This document shows, one piece after another, positions 595 through 64,000 of a stretch of DNA of 64,000 nucleotides (positions within the stretch are counted from its first letter, which is position 1; every line of letters begins with the position of its first letter). A program made the translations under genes and the position numbers. Below the pieces are notes generated by a model. That model was not told the DNA's origin, ran no database searches, and saw only the letters and a program-made list of their open reading frames with translations. Origin of the DNA: Natronomonas moolapensis 8.8.11 (GTDB taxonomy: Archaea > Halobacteriota > Halobacteria > Halobacteriales > Haloarculaceae); assembly GCF_000591055.1 (NCBI RefSeq), contig NC_020388.1, forward strand, positions 1,302,001 to 1,366,000, in the 5' to 3' direction.

Positions 595-3468
595 ATGAGT
601 CAGCGGTTCGAAGCGCTCGAAGAGCGACTCGCGGAGTACGAGTCGCAGATCGATTCCGTCTATCGTCTGTATCACATCCCCGTTCTCGTGGCCCTCATGG
701 CGTTTATGCTGTGGGTTCGGGTACGCAACTACACGAACCACATCGGCCCGAGTGGCGAACCGCTCTACACCGGCAACGACGGGTACTACCACTACCGGTC
801 CGTGAACTACGTGCTCGAGCACTACCCGTACACAATGCCGTTCGACCCCTGGACCGGGTTCGACGCCGGGAGACGGGCCGGGCAGTTCGGAACGATTTTC
901 GATCAGGCGGTGGCGACGGCTGCGCTCGTCGTCGGACTCGGGTCGCCGTCCCAGGAGACGGTCGTCACGGTCACGCTGTTCGCCGCGCCGGTGATCGCGA
1001 CGCTGTGTGCGATTCCGATGTACTACGTGGGCACGCGACTCGGCGGTCGCTTCGGCGGTATCGTCGCCGTGGTCGTCCTCGCGTTGACGCCGGGGTCGTT
1101 CCTCACGCGGAGCGTCGCGGGGTCGTTCGACCACCAGATCGCCGAGGTGTTCTTCTCGCTCGTCGTCCTCGCGGTCGGCATGAAGCTCCTCGCCGTCGCC
1201 CAACGCGAGGCCCCGATCTACGAGTTCGTCCGGACGCGTGAGTTCGAGCTACTCCGTCGGCCGGTCGCGTGGGGGCTCGCTCTCGGCGTCGTGCTCACGT
1301 TGGCCGTGCTCAACTGGCCGCCAGCGATCTTCCTGTTCGGGCTGTTCGGGATTTTCCTCTTTTTTGCCCTCTCGCTCGAGTTCCTCCGGGGACACAGCCC
1401 GGACCACATCGCCATCCCCACGGTCGTCGCGATGGTGACGGCGGCGGTCCTGATCGTCCCCTTCCTGCAGACAACCGGGCTCCAGCCGACCGATTACTCG
1501 ATCGCACACCCCTTGCTCGCGACGGCCGTCGCCGCGGGGACGGCGTTCATGGCCGGGGTGGCCCGACTGTGGGAGCGACAGGAGCTGCCCCGAGCGGCGT
1601 ACCCGTTCGGCGTCGCCGGTGCCGGTCTCGTCGGGGCCGGCGTCCTCGCCGTTGTCTCGCCCGACACGCTCGGCTTCTTCCTCTCGCAACTCGAGCGCGT
1701 CGCCGGGCTCGGAACGACCGACACGGTCGCGACCATCGGCGAAGCGCAGGCTCCGAGGGATCCGCTCGGGCTCTTTTATCGGAACTACGGCCTCGGATTT
1801 TATACGGCGGTTCTGGGCGTGTTGCTCGTCGTGTATCGGGTCGTCTCGCGGACGCGGCCCCGGGCGGACTACCTGCTGATCGCGGTCTACGGGGCGCTCA
1901 TGCTCCTGTTCACCCTGACACAGAACCGCTTCGAGATCCACTTCGTGGTCGCGGTCGCCGCCGCAAACGCCTACGTCGTCGGCTGGATCTACCAGTTCGT
2001 CGACCTCCGGGACGTCCGGACAGACATTGCGAAGGTCAAACCCTACCAGATCCTCATCGTGATCGCGATCCTCGCCGTCATCACCGGCCCCCTCGTCGCG
2101 ACGGGGGCGACGCTCTCGACGGCCGACGGGGCCGCCCAGCCCGGCGAGATGCAACAGTGGGGCGAAAGCCTCGATTGGCTCTCCGAGGAGACCCCCGAAG
2201 TCGGGGCCTACGGCTCGGGGGACGAGCCGAGCCTCGAGTACTACGGCACGTACGAGAATCAAGAGGACTTCGAGTACGGCGACGGCGACTACGGCGTGCT
2301 CGCGTGGTGGGACTACGGCCACTACATAACGACGCGCGGCGAGCGGGTCCCGGTCGCGAACCCCTTCCAGCAACGCGCCACCGAGTCGGCCGACTTCCTG
2401 CTCGCCGACGAGGAGACGGAGGCCCTCGAGATCCTCGACGAGGACCAACCCGACGGCGAGGGCGTCCAGTACGTGATGGTGGATTACCCACTCGGCTACG
2501 CCGGCACGCAGAAGTACAACGCCCCGACGGCCTTCGAGTCCAGACACAACGTGACGAGCGGCGACGTCGGCATCCAGGTAGTCAACGAGCAGGGCCAACG
2601 GCTCTACGGCGCACACACCCAACGCGGCTACGAGAGCATGCGCGTCCGGCTGTACCAACACCACGGGAGCGCACAGGAAGCCGGTCCCGTGACGGTCAAC
2701 TTCGGACAGTACTCGGCAGCCGACGGCGTTGCGACTCTCCCGGAAGGGGCGGCCGGGCTCGACGACCTGTTCACCCAACACGACAGCGTCGAGGCCGCCC
2801 GCGAAGCGGCAGAGAGCGACCCGACCGTCGTCCACGGCGGTGTCCTGGGCCAGCAGGCCGAGCGGACCGAGGCGCTCGAACACTTCCGGCTGGTTCACGC
2901 CGGCGGGCCGACCACCCAGTCGCCGTTCGACCGGCTCGTTCCCGGCCAGACGATCGGCGACAACGAATCGTGGGTGAAGACCTTCGAGCGCGTCGACGGC
3001 GCGACGGTCGAAGGGAGCGGCCCCGAGAACACCGAGGTCCGCGCGAGCGTCGAGATGGAGATGAGCGCGACCAACGAGACGTTCACCTACACCCAATACG
3101 CCGACACGGACGACGAGGGGAACTTCGAGATGACGCTGCCCTACTCGACGACCGGCTACGACGAGTACGGTCCCGAGGCGGGCCACACGAACGTGAGCGT
3201 GCGCGCGAACAGCAGTTATCAGTTCGTCGCGCCCGAAGCCGGTGCGTTCGGCCAAGCCGACGTGACCGAGGGCCAGGTCGTCGGCGCGGACGAGTCGCCA
3301 GTCACGGTTGAGCTCGAGGTCCCACAGCTCGGGCCGGGTGTCGTCGGCGGCACCGACGGATCGGCCGGCGGCGACACGACGGGAAGCGAGACAGCCGACG
3401 GCGACACGACCGGTTCCGGCGGCGACGACGGCACCGCCCCCGAAAGCCGGGTTGCGGCCGCCGGATGA
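595..3468 (+). CDS. aglB: Dolichyl-phosphooligosaccharide-protein glycotransferase (archaeal STT3)
   Basis: This 957-residue membrane enzyme transfers the lipid-linked glycan to asparagine in N-X-S/T sequons on the outer face of the membrane. The first external loop has the catalytic acid motif GNDGYYHYR (Asp62), and a later loop has SFDHQIAE. About a dozen hydrophobic segments fill residues 25-510. The soluble C-terminal domain carries the family signature WWDYG at residues 571-575. The far C-terminus has a beta-rich region with sequons (NET, NVS) and ends in a Gly/Asp/Thr-rich tail (about 915-957). A TATA-like box (GGCTTATGC, about 563-571) fits a leaderless start. The stop codon overlaps the ATG of the DUF368 gene by 4 bases (ATGA), implying translational coupling. 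No other glycan-assembly (agl) genes are in the window. Confidence 0.95.
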   Translation: MSQRFEALEERLAEYESQIDSVYRLYHIPVLVALMAFMLWVRVRNYTNHIGPSGEPLYTGNDGYYHYRSVNYVLEHYPYTMPFDPWTGFDAGRRAGQFGTIFDQAVATAALVVGLGSPSQETVVTVTLFAAPVIATLCAIPMYYVGTRLGGRFGGIVAVVVLALTPGSFLTRSVAGSFDHQIAEVFFSLVVLAVGMKLLAVAQREAPIYEFVRTREFELLRRPVAWGLALGVVLTLAVLNWPPAIFLFGLFGIFLFFALSLEFLRGHSPDHIAIPTVVAMVTAAVLIVPFLQTTGLQPTDYSIAHPLLATAVAAGTAFMAGVARLWERQELPRAAYPFGVAGAGLVGAGVLAVVSPDTLGFFLSQLERVAGLGTTDTVATIGEAQAPRDPLGLFYRNYGLGFYTAVLGVLLVVYRVVSRTRPRADYLLIAVYGALMLLFTLTQNRFEIHFVVAVAAANAYVVGWIYQFVDLRDVRTDIAKVKPYQILIVIAILAVITGPLVATGATLSTADGAAQPGEMQQWGESLDWLSEETPEVGAYGSGDEPSLEYYGTYENQEDFEYGDGDYGVLAWWDYGHYITTRGERVPVANPFQQRATESADFLLADEETEALEILDEDQPDGEGVQYVMVDYPLGYAGTQKYNAPTAFESRHNVTSGDVGIQVVNEQGQRLYGAHTQRGYESMRVRLYQHHGSAQEAGPVTVNFGQYSAADGVATLPEGAAGLDDLFTQHDSVEAAREAAESDPTVVHGGVLGQQAERTEALEHFRLVHAGGPTTQSPFDRLVPGQTIGDNESWVKTFERVDGATVEGSGPENTEVRASVEMEMSATNETFTYTQYADTDDEGNFEMTLPYSTTGYDEYGPEAGHTNVSVRANSSYQFVAPEAGAFGQADVTEGQVVGADESPVTVELEVPQLGPGVVGGTDGSAGGDTTGSETADGDTTGSGGDDGTAPESRVAAAG

Positions 3469-4409
3469 GCCGGTCGGGCGGGCTCCGTGCCTGGGTTTCG
3501 ATCTACCTGAAGGGCGCCTGCATGGGGGCAGCCGACACCGTCCCGGGGGTCTCCGGCGGAACGATCGCAGTCGTCGTCGGGATCTACGAGCGGCTGATCG
3601 CGGCGCTGACCGCGCTCGATCCGCGGGCGGTTCGACACCTCGGGGCGATCCACACGGGAGCGGGACGTGCGGCCCTCGCCGCCGAACTCCGGCAGGCGGA
3701 CGTTCCCTTCCTGTTCGTGCTCGGGCTGGGCGTGCTGTCGGCCGCCGCGACCGTGGCCACCGGGATGCACACTGCGGTCACGCAGTTTCCGGCCCCGACG
3801 TACGCGTTCTTTTTCGGGCTCATCGGCGCCTCGGCGGCGGTGCTGTATCGCCACGTCGACGTCGACACCGGCCTCCGGGTGATCGTCGCCGTCGTCGGGT
3901 TCTCGCTCGCCTTTCTCGTCACCGACCCCGCTCTCGCCGGCGCGCGGCCGACGACGCTGCCGGTGTTGTTCGTCGCCGGGGCGATCGCCATCTCGGCGAT
4001 GATACTCCCCGGGATCTCGGGTGCGTTCCTGTTGCTCTTGATGGGCCAATACGAGTACGCAAGCGGGATTCCGCGGCGGACTGCCGAGGGTGTCGGTGCC
4101 GCCCTGGCGGGCGATCTCGGGCCGCTGGTCGATGCCCTCGTCCCGCTCGTCGCGTTCGGCTCGGGGGCGCTCGTCGGGCTGTTGTCGGTCGCCTACGCCG
4201 TCCGAGCCGCCCTGCGGCGCTACCGGGAGGCGACGTTCGCCTTCCTCGTCAGCTTGATGCTCGGCGCGCTCAGGCTCCCCGCCCGGGAGGTCGCCCGACA
4301 CGTCGGGACGATCTCCCCCGAGTCCGTGGCGACGGTGGGCGTGCCGGCCGTCGCCGGCGGCCTCGCCGTGGTGGCGCTGGATCGGTACAGCGACGAACTG
4401 GAGTACTGA
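3465..4409 (+). CDS. DUF368 membrane protein (PopT/UptA-type polyprenyl-phosphate translocase family)
   Basis: This polytopic protein of 314 residues shows the DUF368 hallmark twice, as expected for an inverted-repeat transporter fold: VPGVSGGTIAVVVGIYERLI near residue 27 and ILPGISGAFLLLLMGQYEY near residue 180. Bacterial DUF368 proteins have been identified as undecaprenyl-phosphate flippases that return the carrier lipid to the cytoplasm. Here the gene overlaps aglB by 4 bases. AglB releases a spent dolichyl carrier on the outer face, so recycling of dolichyl phosphate is the natural inferred role. The family assignment is strong; the archaeal substrate is inference. Its stop codon shares its last base with a 110-bp repeat element. 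Confidence 0.85.
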   Translation: MSRSGGLRAWVSIYLKGACMGAADTVPGVSGGTIAVVVGIYERLIAALTALDPRAVRHLGAIHTGAGRAALAAELRQADVPFLFVLGLGVLSAAATVATGMHTAVTQFPAPTYAFFFGLIGASAAVLYRHVDVDTGLRVIVAVVGFSLAFLVTDPALAGARPTTLPVLFVAGAIAISAMILPGISGAFLLLLMGQYEYASGIPRRTAEGVGAALAGDLGPLVDALVPLVAFGSGALVGLLSVAYAVRAALRRYREATFAFLVSLMLGALRLPAREVARHVGTISPESVATVGVPAVAGGLAVVALDRYSDELEY

Positions 4410-4518
4410 TACTAGTGGACGGACTCGCACAAGACCGACTCACGAGCGATCCGCCGGTCGCTCCGTCGGACGGCGTGGTTCTCGTGCGTCGTGTGTATAT
4501 TCGTTTGCCTGTCAGTAT
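4409..4518. repeat. 110-bp inverted-repeat element, copy A
   Basis: This element is bounded by ATACTAGTGGAC on the left and GTCAGTAT on the right, which are inverted relatives of each other. Its core (about 4439-4492) is the reverse complement of the core of the copies at 13147 and 18284, and it contains the conserved blocks CGATCCGCCGGTCG and CACGAG/CTCGTG. The left end is the last base of the TGA stop of the DUF368 gene. It has no coding capacity. It looks like a MITE-like or REP-like non-autonomous mobile element. Confidence 0.8.
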
Positions 4519-4593
4519 GACGAGCACTGCGGCCGCGCCGACGCGGGTCGAAACCGGCGTGTACGTTAACCCCGTCGCCCCCGAAAGGACGGT

Positions 4594-5196
4594 ATGTCCG
4601 GCCGTCCGGCCCTCGCGACGCTCGCGCTCTGTGTCGGCACGTTCGGTGCCCAGACGGTCGGTACTGTCGCCGGACTCGGCCCCGGGGCGTTCGCGCTGTC
4701 GCTCCCGCTTTCTGAGCAGCCGTGGACCCTTGCGACGAGCGTGTACGCCCACGGCAGTGCCGGCCACCTGCTCGCGAACGGCCTCGCGTTGCTCGTCGTC
4801 GGGCCGCTCGTGGCCTACGTGACGACGGGGGTGCGCTTCCACGCGTTCTTTCTCGCGACCGGCGCGGTCGCCGGAGTCGTCCAAATCGTCGCTTCGGCCC
4901 CGTTCGGCGGGAGCGCGGTTCTCGGCGCCAGCGGCGCCATTTTCGCGCTCCTCGGCTACTTATTCGTCGGGAACCGCGCCTCCGAGCGCGTCCTCGCGTG
5001 GCTTCCGTTGGGCCGGCGCGGCCGACTCGCCGTCTTCGTCGCGCTGGCGGCGCTTCTCACCGCCGCGACGGCCGCCCCGGGCGTCGCACTCGTCGCCCAC
5101 TTCGTCGGGTTCTGTCTCGGCGCCGCCGCCGGCCGGTTCCGGGTGCTTCACGTCCGTTCGGGCGAGGGCGATAGCTCGGGTGGGGGTGGACGCTGA
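4594..5196 (+). CDS. Rhomboid family intramembrane serine protease
   Basis: This membrane protein of 200 residues has about six hydrophobic helices. The nucleophile motif is GASGAIFALLGY (GxSG, Ser near residue 113). The catalytic histidine is in VAHFVGFCLGAAAG near residue 170, so the Ser-His dyad is present. An N-terminal helix is followed by HGSAGHLLANGLAL, matching the usual rhomboid H(x)2-3HLxxN motif. Rhomboids cleave transmembrane substrates within the bilayer; the substrate is unknown, though in Haloferax a rhomboid affects S-layer glycoprotein glycosylation. That makes the nearby aglB operon worth noting. The gene lies just downstream of repeat copy A. Confidence 0.88.
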   Translation: MSGRPALATLALCVGTFGAQTVGTVAGLGPGAFALSLPLSEQPWTLATSVYAHGSAGHLLANGLALLVVGPLVAYVTTGVRFHAFFLATGAVAGVVQIVASAPFGGSAVLGASGAIFALLGYLFVGNRASERVLAWLPLGRRGRLAVFVALAALLTAATAAPGVALVAHFVGFCLGAAAGRFRVLHVRSGEGDSSGGGGR

Positions 5197-5265
5197 GTTG
5201 GGGCGTCGGACGCGGCAGAGACACAACGGACGGGACACGGCGGCGGCCAACACACAACAACAAAG

Positions 5266-5287
5266 ACCACCAGTCCCGAGTGGTGGT
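5266..5287 (+). promoter_or_regulatory. Perfect stem-loop just before the rnp3 start codon
   Basis: ACCACCA (5266-5272) and TGGTGGT (5281-5287) form a perfect 7-base stem with an 8-base loop, ending two bases before the ATG at 5290. If transcribed, it would sit against the initiation region. No clear TATA box is visible in the A/C-rich stretch upstream. Confidence 0.5.
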
Positions 5288-5289
5288 GT

Positions 5290-5979
5290 ATGTACGAGGC
5301 CGTCCACGCGCATCCCGACGGGCAGGCAACCGTCGCCCGACTGGCCAAACGCGCTGCGACGTGCGGCTACGGAGGGATCGTGGTCCGGAACCACGGCGAC
5401 GAACAGGCGGACTACGACGCCGGCCGCATCACCGAGGCGTACGGCGTCGACGTCGTCGCCGGGATCGAGATCCGCGCGGCCGAGGCCGGTCGCGCGAGCG
5501 GGCTGATCGGGAACTACCGCTCGAAGCGGCCCGTCGTCTGCGTCCACGGCGGCGAATTGAACCGCTTTGCGGTCGAACAGCCCCAGGTCGACGTACTCGC
5601 ACACCCGATGGACGGCGGCGACGTCAATCACGTTCTCGCGCGGACGGCCGCCGAGAACGGCGTTCACCTGGAGTTCAACTTCAGCCGCGTGCTGCGGGCC
5701 GACGGCGGGGAGCGGGTCCAGGCCATCCAGGGCCTCCGGAAGCTCCGCGAGCTGGTCGAGCACTACGATACGCCCTACGTTGTCTCCGCGGACGCCGACT
5801 CCCACCTCGCGTTGCGGGCCCCCCGAGAGCTGTTCGCCCTCGGCAAGGTGATCGGCTTCGAGAGCGGAGCCGTCGAGGCGGGGATGCGGGCGTGGCGCGA
5901 TATCGTTGAGCGCAATCGCGAGCGGCTCTCCGGGGCGGTCATCGAGCCCGGCGTCCGCATCGAGGGGTCGGACCGCTGA
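5290..5979 (+). CDS. rnp3: Ribonuclease P protein component 3 (Rpp30)
   Basis: This PHP/TIM-barrel-like protein of 229 residues belongs to the Rpp30 family, which partners with Rnp2 (Pop5) on the RNase P RNA to mature tRNA 5' ends. Recognisable blocks are GGIVVRNHGD (about 33), VVAGIEIRA (about 56), VDVLAHPMDGG (about 98), HLEFNFSRVLRA (about 122) and VVSADADSHLALRAP (about 164). In archaea rnp3 usually sits directly upstream of rnp2 and psmA. Here three genes intervene, and rnp2-psmA-sbds resume at 9349. A stem-loop precedes the start codon. Confidence 0.92.
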   Translation: MYEAVHAHPDGQATVARLAKRAATCGYGGIVVRNHGDEQADYDAGRITEAYGVDVVAGIEIRAAEAGRASGLIGNYRSKRPVVCVHGGELNRFAVEQPQVDVLAHPMDGGDVNHVLARTAAENGVHLEFNFSRVLRADGGERVQAIQGLRKLRELVEHYDTPYVVSADADSHLALRAPRELFALGKVIGFESGAVEAGMRAWRDIVERNRERLSGAVIEPGVRIEGSDR

Positions 5980-57796: not shown

Positions 57797-58030
57797 GACT
57801 GGCAGGCGGACGCGCCCGGCCCGGTCGACGAATCGCCCGCCACTCGCCCCGTCGTGTGGCTCGAACCGCGTGCGCTGTGCCTTCGGTAGTGCGTGACGAG
57901 TCGGCAACACCGGCGCTTTTTGCGTCCTCCGGCCGGATCGTTCGTTCCGGGCGCCGTTCTCCGGCTTCCGACACCGGCGGCATCGTCGCCGATGGCAAGG
58001 CAAATATCGGCCGGCCGCGAACGTCGGGAC

Positions 58031-58789
58031 GTGACAAACGCCCAGGTAACGCTCATCCAGATCGACAACTACGGGCCGTGGACGGTAACCCCCGAACCGC
58101 GCCGTGAGGTCGACCTCCAGACCCTCCAATCGCGGCTGTACGCCGACCTCTCACAGCTTGTCGGGAACAGGGAGGGCTACGTCTTCTTCACCCGCTTCGA
58201 CAACATGGTTGCCGTCACCAACGGCCTCGACGCCGCCGACCACGCCCTGATCCAGGAGTCGGTCGGCAACCGGTATCCGGTGACGGTGAGCCTGAGTATC
58301 GCCGTCGATTCCTCCCCGGCGGCGGCGCTCGGGACCGCGACCGGCCACCTCCAAGACGCCGGCAGCGCCCAGGACGGCGACCGCCGGGAGATTCTCCGCG
58401 GCGACCCCCTCGACGACGCGGCCAGAACCGACGGAGACGTCCGGATCGCCCACTTCGACGTCAACGACGCGACCGGCAAGTACACCGACCAACTCAACGA
58501 GTTCGACTCCTTCATCAACATCGAGCAGGGGTACGCCGAACTGATGCGTTATATGCGAAACGCCCACGAGTCGCTGTCGTTTTTCGTCGGCGGCGACAAC
58601 ATCATTGCGGTGTGTAACGACGTTGACGAGGCCGGCTACCTCGACGCCGTCGGACACGTTCGGGAGGCCGTCGGCGTCGATTTGAAAGTCGGCGTCGGAA
58701 CCGACCGGACGGCCCAGGCCGCCGGGATGGCCGCCAAACACGCCCTCGAGACCTGTCGGGAGGAGTGCACCGACGTCGAGTTTGCGTGA
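58031..58789 (+). CDS. gch3: GTP cyclohydrolase III
   Basis: This 252-residue enzyme is of the archaeal GTP cyclohydrolase IIa/III type. It produces 2-amino-5-formylamino-6-ribosylamino-pyrimidinone 5'-phosphate, the first step to riboflavin and F420. Two GGDEF/cyclase-like repeats are visible: VTLIQIDNYGPWTVTPEPRR with YVFFTRFDNMVAVTNG, and GDVRIAHFDVNDATGKYTDQ with SFFVGGDNIIAVCNDVD. The start is GTG at 58031, as the preceding 13 codons do not fit the family. It is a single gene here; other riboflavin genes are absent from the window. Confidence 0.9.
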   Translation: MTNAQVTLIQIDNYGPWTVTPEPRREVDLQTLQSRLYADLSQLVGNREGYVFFTRFDNMVAVTNGLDAADHALIQESVGNRYPVTVSLSIAVDSSPAAALGTATGHLQDAGSAQDGDRREILRGDPLDDAARTDGDVRIAHFDVNDATGKYTDQLNEFDSFINIEQGYAELMRYMRNAHESLSFFVGGDNIIAVCNDVDEAGYLDAVGHVREAVGVDLKVGVGTDRTAQAAGMAAKHALETCREECTDVEFA

Positions 58790-58878: not shown

Positions 58879-60237
58879 ATGTCGAGAAAGATAGACAGAC
58901 GTGACGTACTGAAAGGAGCCGGCGTTACCGGTCTCGCCGCCCTGGCCGGGTGTACCGGCAACGGCAACGGTACCGGCGGCAACGGCAACGGTACCGGCGG
59001 CAACGGCAACGGTACCGATACCGGCGGCGACTCCGGCAGCGTAGACGTCGACGTCATCAACGTCATCGGGTACCCGGAAGACGGTAACACGCTGTTCCGA
59101 AACTACTACGAGCTGAGCGACGGCAGCGAGGACATCATTGTTCCCGACGGCCTCCGGGACGGAGAGCTCCAACAGCAAGTCGGAAACCCGATGGAGAACG
59201 TCGTCGGGACAGCACCCGCTGCGGGCGGTCCCGCACAGGAGGCGTTTAGCGGCCTCTACGAGAACGAGTACGGCGAAACCCCCGGGGTGTTTACGACACA
59301 GTCGTACGACTCCGTCGCCGTCGGCATCCTCGCGAACGTCGCGGCGGGAGAAAACAGCGGCACCGGTATCCGCGATCAGATGCGGAACGTGGCCAACCCC
59401 GACGGGATGGAAGTCACTCCCGAGAACTTCGTCGAGGGCGTCGAGGCCGTCGCCAACGGCGATCCGATCAACTACCAGGGGGCGTCCTCGGACGTCAACT
59501 TCAACGAGGCCGGCGACCCGGCCAACGCCGCCTACGACGTCTGGGAGTTCACCGGCGACGGCGGGACGGAGGCGACAGACACGCTGAATTTCGAGGGCGA
59601 TAGCCCGGACGGTGCTGGTCCCTCCGCCGACACGATCGAGGGCGGGCTCGGACGGACCGTCGACATCGGCATCCTGCTCCCGGAGACCGGCAACCTCGCC
59701 TCGGTGGGCGAGGGAATGATAAACGCCGCCGAAATCCCGGCGATGCAGGTCAACGAGGCGGACGTCGACATCGAGGTCGAAACCCAACTCGAGGACACGA
59801 ACACGGAGCCGAACACGGGCATTCAGGCGGCGAACTCGCTGGTCAACGCGGGCGTTCCTTACATCTGTGGGTCGGCGTCCTCTGGGGTGAACGTCCCGGT
59901 GGCACAGCAGGCGCTCATCCCGAATCAGGTCGTCGGCTGCTCGCCGTCCTCGACGGCGCTGTCGGTGACAAACCTCGAGGACGACGACTACATATTCCGG
60001 ACGGCACCGTCGGATCTGCTACAGGGTCGCGTGATGGCACAGGTCGCCTCAGAGCAGCTCGGCGCCGAAGTCGCGACGACGCTGTACGTCAACAACGACT
60101 ACGGCCAACAGCTCTCAGAGCAGTTCGCCAGCGTCTTCGAGGCGGACTTCGGCGGGACCGTCGAGGCACAGGTGGCCTACAATCAAAACGAGGACTCTTA
60201 CACCTCGGCCATCCAGGAAGCCATCGGCGGTAACTGA
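58879..60237 (+). CDS. LivK-like substrate-binding lipoprotein, apparently circularly permuted
   Basis: This 452-residue periplasmic-binding lipoprotein has a Tat-like signal (SRKIDRRDVLKGAGVTGLAA) and lipobox Cys25, then an Asn/Gly/Thr linker. Residues about 56-235 match the C-terminal part of LivK-family proteins (VINVIGYPEDGNTLFRNYY, IIVPDGL, NYQGASSDVNFNEAGDP, AAYDVWEF). Residues about 259-452 match the N-terminal part (VDIGILLPETGNLASVGEGM, FRTAPSDLLQG, TLYVNNDYGQ). The order is thus reversed. Residues 226-258 bridge the halves. It converges with livHMGF on the other strand, 8 bases from livF. A TATA-like box (CATTTATTTC) lies near 58846. It is the probable binding protein of that importer. 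Confidence 0.82.
   Translation: MSRKIDRRDVLKGAGVTGLAALAGCTGNGNGTGGNGNGTGGNGNGTDTGGDSGSVDVDVINVIGYPEDGNTLFRNYYELSDGSEDIIVPDGLRDGELQQQVGNPMENVVGTAPAAGGPAQEAFSGLYENEYGETPGVFTTQSYDSVAVGILANVAAGENSGTGIRDQMRNVANPDGMEVTPENFVEGVEAVANGDPINYQGASSDVNFNEAGDPANAAYDVWEFTGDGGTEATDTLNFEGDSPDGAGPSADTIEGGLGRTVDIGILLPETGNLASVGEGMINAAEIPAMQVNEADVDIEVETQLEDTNTEPNTGIQAANSLVNAGVPYICGSASSGVNVPVAQQALIPNQVVGCSPSSTALSVTNLEDDDYIFRTAPSDLLQGRVMAQVASEQLGAEVATTLYVNNDYGQQLSEQFASVFEADFGGTVEAQVAYNQNEDSYTSAIQEAIGGN
58957..59019 (+). repeat. Three tandem 21-bp repeats in the lipoprotein linker
   Basis: GGCAACGGCAACGGTACCGGC is repeated three times (the last slightly changed) within the substrate-binding protein gene. It encodes a Gly/Asn/Thr-rich linker just after the lipobox. 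In-frame tandem repeats like this can promote slippage or recombination and may relate to the permutation of this gene. Confidence 0.85.
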
Positions 60238-60245
60238 TCGGGTTA

Positions 60246-61058
60246 TCACCCGCCCAGGAAGTCCTGTCGGACTCCCTGGTCGGCCAGCAGTTCGACGCCG
60301 GAGTCCTCATAGCGGTTTCGTCCGTCGACCAGGACGTACCCCCTATCACACCGCCTGAGCGCCTCCTTGGCGTTCTGTTCGACCATCAGGATCGCCGTTC
60401 CGTCGTCGTTGATGCGGTCGATGCGGTCGAACATGTCGTCGACGAGGTCGGGTGCGAGACCGGCTGAGGGCTCGTCGAGCAACAGCAAATCGGGGTCGAG
60501 CATCAGCGTCCGACCCATCGCGAGCATCTGTCGCTGGCCGCCGGACATCGTCCCGGCCTTCTGTTCGCGCCGTTCCCGGAGGATGGGAAAGCGGTCGTAG
60601 ACGGTCTCGAGGGCGTCCTCGGGCGTCTCGTCGAGGATGTACGCCCCCATCTCCAGGTTCTCCTGAACCGAGAGATTCGCGAACACATTGTCGTTTTGGG
60701 GCACGTAGCCGATCCCTTCGTAGATGATCTCCTCGGGGACGGTGTCGGTAATGTCCGATCCACCGAACGTGACGGAGCCGTCCATCCGGTTCGTCAGCCC
60801 GAACACGGATTTCATAAGGGTCGATTTGCCTGCCCCGTTCGGACCGACAATCGTGACGTACTCTCCCGGCCTGACGTCGAGGTCGACGTCCGAGAGAATC
60901 TGTAGGTCCCCGTAGCCGGCGTCGAGGTTTCGCACCTCGAGTATGCTGTCGTCCCAGCGCCTGGCACCTCTGTTGGCGCCGGTGTCGGCGTCTGTCTCGG
61001 GCTCGGCGTCGACCGCGTCCCCGGTGTCGGGGTCGGTCTCGCTGTCGATGTCACTCAT
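60246..61058 (-). CDS. livF: Branched-chain amino-acid type ABC transporter ATP-binding protein
   Basis: This 270-residue LivF-like ATPase has Walker A GPNGAGKSTLMKSVFGL, signature MSGGQRQMLAMGRTL and Walker B LLLLDEPSAGLAPDL. The family's QNDNVFANLSVQENL motif follows the Q-loop. The N-terminal 40 residues are an acidic extension not typical of bacterial LivF. It overlaps livG by 4 bases (ATGA) and is the last gene of livH-M-G-F. Confidence 0.94.
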   Translation of the reverse strand: MSDIDSETDPDTGDAVDAEPETDADTGANRGARRWDDSILEVRNLDAGYGDLQILSDVDLDVRPGEYVTIVGPNGAGKSTLMKSVFGLTNRMDGSVTFGGSDITDTVPEEIIYEGIGYVPQNDNVFANLSVQENLEMGAYILDETPEDALETVYDRFPILRERREQKAGTMSGGQRQMLAMGRTLMLDPDLLLLDEPSAGLAPDLVDDMFDRIDRINDDGTAILMVEQNAKEALRRCDRGYVLVDGRNRYEDSGVELLADQGVRQDFLGG

Positions 61059-61960
61059 TCGACGTCGCCCCCGAGATACGCCTCGATGACCGCCTCGTTC
61101 GATCGAACCTCGGACGGTGGCCCTTCCGTGAGGACGGACCCCTGATGCATCACGATGATGTGTTCGCAGTGCTCCATAATCAGGTCCATGTCGTGTTCGA
61201 CGATGAGGAACGTGTACCCGTCCTCGCGAAGTTCGTGAATGTGCTCGAGGAGCCGCCCTTCGAGCGAGGGGTTGACGCCCGCGAACGGCTCATCGAGTAG
61301 CAACATCGTCGGGTCCGTCAGCAGTGCGCGGGCCAACTCGAGGAGCTTCCGTTGGCCCCCCGAGAGGTTGCCCGCATACTCTTCGGCGAGATGATCGATC
61401 TCGAAGAACTCGAGCATCTCCCAGCAGCGCTCGAGTACCTTCCGCTCCTGTTCGACGACGCCCCGGCGGGCGAGCGGCAGCACCGACCGCCACAGCGACT
61501 CGCCGAGTTGGCCCTTCGGTGCGAGCATCATGTTCTCGATGACGGTCATCTCCTCGAGCTCGCGAGCGAGTTGGAAGGTGCGGACGAGGCCGTGGTTTGC
61601 GATCCGGTTCGGCGACAGCCCCGTGACGTCTTCGCCCTGGAAGTAGACAGTCCCGTCGGTCGGTTCGTGGATTCCCGTGATGCAGTTGAACGTCGTCGAC
61701 TTGCCGGCTCCGTTCGGGCCGATCAACCCGGTGATAGACCCCTTTTCGACGCTGAAACTCGCCCCGTCGACGGCGGTGATGCTGCCGAACTCCTTTCGCA
61801 GCCCCTCGACGCGGAGCGGGATCGAACTGGGCGTGTGTTTCGCCGCCCGCTCGATGTCCGAGTCGTGCGTCTCGACGCCCTCGCGGTCCTCGGGGGAGGC
61901 CCCCGACCGGCCCGAAACGGCCGTCCCGGCTGCCGCGTCAGTGGCTTCGGTGTCACTCAT
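61055..61960 (-). CDS. livG: Branched-chain amino-acid type ABC transporter ATP-binding protein
   Basis: This 301-residue LivG-like ATPase has Walker A GPNGAGKSTTFNCITG, signature LSGGQRKLLELARALL and Walker B TMLLLDEPFAGVNPSL. The LivG-type motif LVRTFQLARELEEMTVIENM is present. The N-terminal extension (about 50 residues) is acidic. The start was placed at MSDTEATDAA, 8 bases into the livM end; an upstream in-frame ATG would lie deep in livM. Confidence 0.94.
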   Translation of the reverse strand: MSDTEATDAAAGTAVSGRSGASPEDREGVETHDSDIERAAKHTPSSIPLRVEGLRKEFGSITAVDGASFSVEKGSITGLIGPNGAGKSTTFNCITGIHEPTDGTVYFQGEDVTGLSPNRIANHGLVRTFQLARELEEMTVIENMMLAPKGQLGESLWRSVLPLARRGVVEQERKVLERCWEMLEFFEIDHLAEEYAGNLSGGQRKLLELARALLTDPTMLLLDEPFAGVNPSLEGRLLEHIHELREDGYTFLIVEHDMDLIMEHCEHIIVMHQGSVLTEGPPSEVRSNEAVIEAYLGGDVE

Positions 61961-63323
61961 CTGCGTCCTCCTTGTCGGCGTTAGCGCTGTCGCCGAGCGA
62001 CGTCGTTCCGGCCGATCCGCCACCCGCCGGTCGTTCGAGCCCGATCGGACTCGCGGCTTCCTTGCGGTGGCCGAGTATCCCCTCCGGCCGGTTGTGCATC
62101 AGGTATACGAGCACGAGACCCATGATGACGAGTTGTAGTTGTTGCATATTGTCGATCGTGTACACGAACAACGGGATCGGGTTCGCCGAGTCCACGATCG
62201 GCGCAACGGCCCCAGCGAACGTGTCGACCGCGTCGACCTCGATCGTCTCCTGAACGATGTTCTTGACGAACAGCGGCCCGCGGAACAGAAAGGCCGCAAA
62301 CACCGCGCCGCCGACGACGCTGCCCGTGTTCGAGCCGGCACCGCCGATAATGAGCGCGATCCACACGAAGAAGGTGATCCGTGGTCGGAACGCGTCGGGC
62401 GTGATCGCGCCCTGTTCGGCGTAAAACAGGATGCCGGCCAGTCCCATCAATCCGCAGCCAATCATAAACGCCTGTATCTTGAATCGGCTCGTGTCCTTGC
62501 CGAGCGAGCGGGTCGCCTCCTCGTCCTCGCGGATCGCTTTCAGCACCCGACCGAACGGCGAGTTGCCGATCCGTCGCAGTGTCACGTAGAACCCAGCCAG
62601 GAACACCAGCAGGACGAGCGCATAAAAGAGGCCATCGAGTACGGGCTTTGGGTTCGCCCCGAGACCGAGTTGGGTTCCGAGCGACTCGGTGAACCCCACG
62701 TAGGCTTCCGAGAGCCCCAAGACGGCGAGAAGTTGATCCGTCGGGTCGAAATCGAGGATGAGCCCGGAGCCACCACCGAGACCGGTGTAGTACCCGGCGA
62801 CGACGACGTCTTGGAAACTGGACTCGAGCAACGTGAACCGAACGATCTCGCTGAGGCCGATTGTGACGATAGCGAAGTAGTCGGCGCGGAGACGCAACGC
62901 CGGTAGCGCAACGAGACCGCCGAAGATCGACGCCGCAACGACGCCGCCGACGATACCGAGCCAAAGCGGCAGGCCGAACCCGCCCGTCGACCCGGCTGCC
63001 GGCTGTGTCAACATCGCGCCCTTCGAGAGGATGGCCGTCGTGTAGATGCCGATCGCCATGAACCCGATGACGCCGATGTTAAACAGTCCCGTGTACCCCC
63101 AATGGAGGTTGAGCCCGAGCGCCAACATAGCGAACACGGCAATATAAAACAAGAGCTGAGCGATCGAGTTGACCTGTTGTCTGACCCCGTACTCGAGGAG
63201 CATCCCGCCAGCGAGGTACAGCGCGAACAGCCCGGCAACGAGCGCCGTCAGCTTCACGGCGTCTTGCCCCCAGACCGCTGCCAGTGCCGTCGCGTTCGGG
63301 CTGTCGCCAGTCTCGTCGCTCAT
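61953..63323 (-). CDS. livM: Branched-chain amino-acid type ABC transporter permease
   Basis: This 456-residue LivM permease has about 9-10 helices. Family motifs are LGLNLHWGYTGLFNIGVIGF, ALRLRADYFAIVTIGLSEIV and the cytoplasmic EAA-like loop SPFGRVLKAIREDEEATRSL. Later IGGAGSNTGSVVGGAVFAAF is the usual GGxGTxxGPxxGA region. The C-terminal 60 residues are hydrophilic. The ATG overlaps the livH stop by 4 bases. Confidence 0.94.
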   Translation of the reverse strand: MSDETGDSPNATALAAVWGQDAVKLTALVAGLFALYLAGGMLLEYGVRQQVNSIAQLLFYIAVFAMLALGLNLHWGYTGLFNIGVIGFMAIGIYTTAILSKGAMLTQPAAGSTGGFGLPLWLGIVGGVVAASIFGGLVALPALRLRADYFAIVTIGLSEIVRFTLLESSFQDVVVAGYYTGLGGGSGLILDFDPTDQLLAVLGLSEAYVGFTESLGTQLGLGANPKPVLDGLFYALVLLVFLAGFYVTLRRIGNSPFGRVLKAIREDEEATRSLGKDTSRFKIQAFMIGCGLMGLAGILFYAEQGAITPDAFRPRITFFVWIALIIGGAGSNTGSVVGGAVFAAFLFRGPLFVKNIVQETIEVDAVDTFAGAVAPIVDSANPIPLFVYTIDNMQQLQLVIMGLVLVYLMHNRPEGILGHRKEAASPIGLERPAGGGSAGTTSLGDSANADKEDADE

Positions 63324-64000
63324 GCAGTCGACCTCCCGGAGAAGATGCCCGTCGGGCGCACGAGCAACACGACGATCATTACGACGAACGCGGCCGCCCT
63401 CGAGAGGCCAGTCGGGATCCAGACGACGGAGACCGACATCGTGAGACCGATGACGAGGCCGCCGACGATGGCTCCGTATATCGACCCGATTCCGCCGAGG
63501 ATTACCGCTGCGAACACCGGCAACAGGAGGACCCACCCCTGGAACCAGTGTAGCGTCCCGTTCCAGATGACGAACATATAACCGGCGACACCGGCGAGAC
63601 CGGCGCCGATGATCCACGTAAAGCGGATGACTCGCTCCGTCGGGATTCCGGTCACTCGGGCGAGGTCCTCGTTGTCCGCCATCGCCCGCATCGCCTTCCC
63701 GAGTTTCGTTCGCTGGAGAAGCAGGTGTAGCCCGCCCATCAGCGCGACCGCGACGACGACGAGCGACACCTCGTGCAGATCGAGGCTGACGATTCCGTCG
63801 ACGAGTGGGATCGCGACGCTCGGAACGTCCCCCGATGCTGTCACCCCGCGCCGGCCGGGCCCGAAGACGAACTGAATCAGATACCGGAGTGCGAACGCGA
63901 CGCCGACGCTCGTTATCAACAGCGCGATTCCGGACCGGTCTCTGATCGGCCGGTACGCCAGTCGGTCGATCGCAAGCGCGAGCGCGATCGCCGATGCCCC
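63320..64000 (-). CDS. livH: Branched-chain amino-acid type ABC transporter permease, partial
   Basis: This is the C-terminal part of LivH, 226 codons visible and open through the window edge, so the true start lies outside. The visible sequence includes the family's DRLAYRPIRDRSGIALLITS loop, then TKLGKAMRAMADNEDLARVT (the EAA-like coupling helix) and ILGGIGSIYGAIVGGLVIGL. It forms the heterodimeric membrane channel with LivM. Frame and overlap with livM are unambiguous. Confidence 0.93.
   Translation of the reverse strand, partial: GASAIALALAIDRLAYRPIRDRSGIALLITSVGVAFALRYLIQFVFGPGRRGVTASGDVPSVAIPLVDGIVSLDLHEVSLVVVAVALMGGLHLLLQRTKLGKAMRAMADNEDLARVTGIPTERVIRFTWIIGAGLAGVAGYMFVIWNGTLHWFQGWVLLLPVFAAVILGGIGSIYGAIVGGLVIGLTMSVSVVWIPTGLSRAAAFVVMIVVLLVRPTGIFSGRSTA

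Follow-up and report, generated by a model that had tools for sequence, protein, structure and literature searches.

A LivK-type binding protein with exchanged halves in Natronomonas moolapensis, and the apparently repeated circular permutation of its locus in haloarchaea

What kind of gene encodes the two halves of a familiar binding protein in exchanged order, and how did it arise? The question is raised by an open reading frame at positions 58879-60237 (+ strand) of a 64,000-nucleotide stretch of the Natronomonas moolapensis 8.8.11 genome (contig NC_020388.1), referred to here as the window. The frame runs from ATG to TGA without an internal stop and encodes 452 amino acids. Its product starts with a Tat signal peptide (RRDVLK; 58879-58953, +) that ends in the lipobox LAGC, with Cys25 as the predicted lipidation site, and continues with a Gly/Asn/Thr membrane tether in which a repeat search finds in-frame 21-bp repeats (58954-59043, +). 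An initial annotation, made by reading this DNA alone, had described the N-terminus in the same way, and Pfam TAT_signal (residues 4-24) and TIGR01409 agree with it. It had also proposed that the remainder is a LivK-like SBP with its C-terminal half (C-half) in front of its N-terminal half (N-half).

Domain and structure matches bear this proposal out. The C-half comes first in the chain (residues 56-235; 59044-59583, +), a fusion linker of ~20 residues with the core GDSPDGAGPSADTIEGGLG leads from the native C-terminus to the native N-terminus (59584-59652, +), and the N-half comes last (residues 259-452 and the stop codon; 59653-60237, +). When the halves are aligned separately, as had been suggested, the one proves to be the start of the family and the other its end: residues 260-448 strongly match positions 1-186 of the 343 in PF13458 (Peripla_BP_6), and the first half weakly matches positions 263-353 of the 353 in ANF_receptor (E=6e-4). 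A single PDB chain, 3td9 (Thermotoga LivK), accommodates both, with query residues 259-446 aligned to its positions 15-198 and residues 56-177 to 204-328, and 4gnr shows the same swapped mapping. An HMM of the C-half built from the protein's own family scores 288 bits on the first half. Because both halves map onto one LivK chain, and do so in frame, the order is swapped and almost nothing has been lost; permutation, rather than deletion, had been the earlier view as well. The possibility that the two parts are N-terminal lobes of different genes is ruled out by their mapping to distinct parts of 3td9. The window protein lacks the colinear N-to-C order of the Peripla_BP_6/LivK (HAAT) family, and it has the attributes of a natural circular permutation: within one open reading frame, and in several genomes, two segments are homologous to a single protein and their order is exchanged. 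Its PF13458 score, 97 bits over two stretches, exceeds the curated cut-off of 31.7. The score for the NCBIfam model of high-affinity branched-chain amino acid SBPs (NF011933) is 46 bits, under the curated cut-off of 477, as is that of a canonical haloarchaeal relative (48 bits).

How widespread is this arrangement? Among 342 genomes drawn evenly from the Halobacteriales, about 130 (132 when counted by hand from the rows listed) contain a full-length colinear match to the permuted query, and the comparison with haloarchaeal orthologues that had been recommended thereby confirms the order. The matches are full length in dozens of independently assembled genomes, at ~47-86% identity, and the same order is found in named isolates of Halorubrum, Halorussus, Halobellus, Halospeciosus and Haloglomus, for example Halorubrum saccharovorum, Halorussus halobius and Halospeciosus flavus. 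The claim that permuted SBPs are rare in nature is therefore only partly right: a single natural type I precedent is known, but within the Halobacteriales the permuted form is a common one. In other families of the phylum, the matches listed comprised only half-length pieces, and those inspected had the canonical order. A search for permuted copies on haloarchaeal plasmids returned matches in two pieces, and the one open to checking, H1, which agrees with L202 in record length and position, is canonical.

The family holds more than one permuted arrangement. HMMs of each half, built from the family, were scanned against the open reading frames of all loci, and on this basis the 175 distinct proteins divide into 111 CP-A, 59 canonical and 5 CP-B. 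Canonical proteins have the order N-C and CP-A proteins, including the window protein, the order C-linker-N. CP-B proteins consist of the N-half minus its first ~38 positions, the C-half, the linker and then the missing first ~40 positions, such that they begin at the second strand and have the first strand and helix at their end. The two CP-B groups have different C-termini (e.g. NEADLDIS and AKMWNDQM). CP-B proteins retain the linker motif of CP-A (GxNPxGxGPSADxxPG, slightly varied), and for this reason CP-B looks like a second permutation, made in a gene that was already permuted. The halves still align at ~45-75% identity between forms, and some genomes carry both canonical and permuted paralogues. 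Halorussus halobius has identical CP-A proteins on two separate contigs (L048 and L049), and the matching copies in genome G214 are likewise on two contigs. At one further locus, L231 (genome G216, 2974-5565), a CP-A gene of group g2 is interrupted in its N-half by an insertion of ~1.4 kb, probably a mobile element; both parts of the gene are ~83-85% identical to L028. Another locus, L087 (2970-5369), contains an open frame of 800 residues in which distant LivK halves are confined to the second part.

All three forms occupy a common locus, in which a GTP cyclohydrolase III gene is followed by the SBP gene and then by livFGMH on the opposite strand. At most loci with long enough flanks, canonical, CP-A and CP-B genes lie on the same side of livF-livG-livM-livH and convergent with it, and the SBP gene is often preceded on its own strand by GTP cyclohydrolase III. 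In the window, GTP cyclohydrolase III (57893-58789, +; PF05165, E=7e-89) is the conserved upstream neighbor, and it accompanies the SBP gene frequently across families without an obvious functional link. Downstream, in convergent orientation, the translated frames are a livF-like ABC ATPase (60246-61058, -), which is conserved beside all three forms, a livG-like ABC ATPase (61055-61960, -), a livM-like permease (61953-63323, -; PF02653 at 62295-63164) and a livH-like permease that runs past the end of the window (63320-64000, -; PF02653 from 63365 to beyond the end). The genome encodes three PF13458 SBPs, each adjoining its own permease pair, and the permuted protein is the only one next to this LivHMGF set. 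Within Natronomonas, an assignment that rests on L042 (from a Natronomonas contig; the same-genus genome G003 encodes an identical protein), the same slot holds a canonical gene in L075, L077, L081, L085, L086 and L091, a CP-A gene of the main group in L001, L009 and L011, a CP-A gene of group g2 in L029, L033 and L036, and a CP-B gene in L037, L068 and L070.

Where has the chain been cut? In CP-A, the cut separates the helix SYTSAIQEAIG from the strand VINVIGYP that comes after it, at ~residue 190-200 in LivK numbering. The initial annotation had placed it at the inter-lobe hinge; the mapping onto LivK, with the lobe limits that we assume for LivJ/LivK, puts it inside lobe 2 instead. All CP-A proteins start at most a few residues from the strand VIGYP (or VVGFP) and end at most a few residues from the helix SYxSxxxxAL, that is, with the break in the helix-to-strand loop. 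The CP-B break is in a different helix-to-strand loop, after the first helix. Helix-to-strand loops in such a fold sit away from the ligand cleft, which would explain why both breaks are tolerated. Some canonical proteins have a mature N-terminus similar to the last part of the fusion linker, as with IPGSEAGRTVSVGV in L080. The membrane tether has a median length of ~34 residues, and canonical relatives likewise have a low-complexity, Gly/Asn-rich tether after the lipobox. Consequently, the 21-bp repeats, once read as a scar of duplication and trimming, give no sign of either; they are ordinary lipoprotein-tether sequence with no bearing on the permutation.

How often did permutation occur? 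In trees for which the halves were first restored to canonical order, the main CP-A group and CP-B unite in a single clade (100/100). The g2 proteins (L028 and relatives) make up a second one (100/99), nested in a canonical group, group g3 (L032, L153, L156 and L157) is a clade (100/100) amid other canonical proteins, and L027 and L031 group with the canonical L072 and L197. A CP-A protein, L054, is sister to one CP-B group. AU tests, with p-values that are somewhat optimistic given that the groups were named after a first tree had been inspected, reject a single clade of all permuted proteins (p-AU 8e-5; p=0.004 with an earlier set), of main plus g2 (p=9e-4), of main plus L027 and L031 (p=0.0035) and of CP-B (p-AU 2e-4). 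With a canonical root state, the simplest history has CP-A gained about four times and CP-B twice. Given that the single clades are rejected, it seems that the same loop was broken on about four separate occasions to yield CP-A, and that CP-A in turn gave rise to CP-B on two. Separate trees of the N-half and the C-half agree for main, g2 and g3, which argues against single-half gene conversion as the source of the polyphyly. As a separate matter, the N-half of the canonical protein L100 groups with CP-A group g2 and its C-half elsewhere, and L100 is likely to be a recombinant.

By what route might a gene be permuted in place? Duplication is a textbook route to circular permutation (PMC3320104). 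For this locus, the most likely course, taken several times, is a tandem duplication after which the outer halves were lost: tandem pairs of CP-A genes exist at the locus (L023, L166 and L227, family f17), and the linker resembles a canonical mature N-terminus. The initial annotation had favored the same route; the route seems likely to stand, on these grounds rather than on the tether repeats from which it had been argued. In genome G097, the tandem CP-A proteins are each ~59% identical to the window protein. The loop in which CP-A is broken is Gly/Asp/Asn-rich like the tether, and after duplication of the gene, one deletion from tether to loop would create the new start. This composition may, speculatively, explain why the same break was used repeatedly.

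What would the permuted protein do? AlphaFold2 (AF2) models have one confident fold for the window protein (pLDDT 88.7, pTM 0.85) and similar values for CP-B (pLDDT 89.6, pTM 0.84), although the input was an alignment of permuted relatives, making this a weak test of foldability. The initial annotation had looked to structure prediction for a single type I fold with swapped termini. A single fold was predicted with confidence, and the Foldseek matches of this model to LivK span one half, as Foldseek aligns in chain order. Alignment of the CP-A model with the best LivK structures extends along no more than ~195 columns, in most cases at 2.2-2.8 A, and that of the CP-B model along ~340, a long match because only the first strand and helix have moved; these lengths are as expected from the two arrangements. 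S355, T359, Y408, D90 and D144 (window numbering), which we take to be positions of the LivK pocket region, are invariant in CP-A, CP-B and canonical proteins. All forms are under purifying selection, with dN/dS of ~0.1-0.4 in CP-A, CP-B and canonical pairs. We infer that the fold is the normal type I fold: the chain would run from the lobe-2 strand VINVIGYP to the native C-terminus, through the linker to the native N-terminus and on to the helix that precedes the starting strand, producing an ordinary two-lobed Venus flytrap with its ligand cleft intact. In CP-A, the membrane tether would be attached at the far side of lobe 2 and no longer to lobe 1, a change that may be nearly neutral because flexible tethers are present in all forms. 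The exported lipoprotein would bind its ligand, probably an amino acid, and pass it to the convergently encoded LivHMGF importer, its presumed partner. With a probability of roughly 85%, then, the gene encodes a Tat-exported, lipid-anchored LivK-like SBP that is permuted in lobe 2, folds normally and feeds LivHMGF, and this arrangement arose in place several times, with CP-B derived twice from CP-A.

There are other ways to read these data. An assembly or annotation artefact could not be excluded from a single sequence, but its probability is negligible: the source genome is complete, as one 2.91-Mb contig, the linker is conserved, and because the arrangement recurs at full length in dozens of independent assemblies, named isolates among the about 130 genomes, chance and misassembly are excluded. 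It is also conceivable that the permuted protein is a sensor, scavenger or decoy whose order drifted after docking constraints were lost, and the convergent position of the gene, without co-transcription with livFGMH, would suit such a role. Yet canonical genes are convergent with livFGMH as well, no other PF13458 SBP lies beside the LivHMGF set of the window, and the invariant pocket motifs and low dN/dS speak for a working binding protein, so we give this idea very little credence.

The alternatives for the history of the locus carry somewhat more weight. The foremost, and still an unlikely one, is that a single ancestral permutation was followed by several reversions or by gene conversion with canonical paralogues, with the polyphyly existing only in the sequence tree. 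A history of several but fewer permutations, combined with reversions or gene conversion at the common locus, could likewise underlie the tree. The use of one break loop by all CP-A proteins, the S(A)D..PG..R element common to the linkers of main, L027 and L031, and the coexistence of canonical and permuted paralogues would all fit. Rejection of a single clade by the AU tests does not decide the matter, as reversion would yield the same result. However, each half on its own places g2 in the same canonical group (starred values of 99 for the N-half and 96 for the C-half) and g3 away from the main clade, reversion takes the same kind of steps as gain, and the g2 and g3 linkers are unlike that of main, the g2 linker ending like the mature N-terminus of its canonical neighbor. 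Fission followed by fusion, in which separate half genes rejoin in reverse order, is a general route for natural permutation (PMC3320104), and we consider it improbable at this locus. There are no separate half genes in the loci scanned or their flanks, and a CP-B protein that has kept the CP-A linker is more simply derived from a tandem array. Repeated permutation in place by duplication remains the preferred reading, with the proviso that neither a fused N-C-N form nor a leftover half beside any gene was found in the loci scanned.

What are the implications of such a locus? To our knowledge, natural circular permutations are usually ancient, single events that are noticed only afterwards. 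Here, canonical, once-permuted and apparently twice-permuted orthologues occupy the same locus in close relatives and have alignable halves, which makes the route, the intermediates and the costs or benefits of permutation directly testable. A broader proposal, on which we are evenly divided, is that one locus has undergone re-permutation in place at two loops, at least four times at the first and twice more at the other, that the topologies are interchangeable within one genus, and that a feature of the DNA or selection on the tethered lobe drives the recurrence. Naturally permuted type I binding proteins, with break points that nature tolerates, would also be useful for sensor design. Searches of open-access literature turned up no report of permuted LivK-type or haloarchaeal SBPs, the only comparable cases being TpMglB-2 and engineered sensors. 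As far as checked, four things are new: that a LivK-family protein is permuted, that haloarchaea have the permuted form so often, that there is a second permuted topology, and that permutation seems to have originated repeatedly at a single locus.

Several known systems share parts of this pattern. LivK and LivJ (3td9, 4gnr, 4n0q and 2lbp) are homologous to the window protein over both halves, have its pocket motifs and are encoded beside livHMGF; they differ in that the window protein has swapped halves, a linker between the native termini and a tether on lobe 2. DNA methyltransferases are a family for which intermediates of permutation have been documented (cited in PMC3320104), and they resemble the present family in having several topologies and in permutation by duplication, the probable route here; they are enzymes, whereas here it is an SBP whose forms are alternatives for a single locus among members of one genus. 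The Thermotoga ribose-binding protein has been made into permuted halves that are reported to fold still (PMC9815098), a parallel in that permuted PBP halves can fold, with laboratory half constructs there and a natural, full-length protein here. The closest precedent is Treponema pallidum TpMglB-2 (Tp0684), a natural circularly permuted "Type Ic/Cluster Bc" ligand-binding protein in which the first three N-lobe strands have moved to the C-terminus, the moved part being 13% identical to EcMglB (PMC4990184). Like the window protein, it is a naturally permuted, lipid-anchored type I SBP, its gene is reported to adjoin those of its ABC importer, and permutation brings a further inter-lobe crossover (PMC4990184). 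TpMglB-2 belongs to the sugar-binding MglB family and is broken in the N-lobe, whereas the window protein belongs to the LivK/HAAT family, and the Type Ic topology is matched neither by CP-A, with its break in lobe 2, nor by CP-B, with its break after the first strand and helix. In contrast to TpMglB-2, the haloarchaeal family combines halves that can still be aligned with a canonical and two permuted forms at one locus, and its permutations appear to have originated repeatedly.
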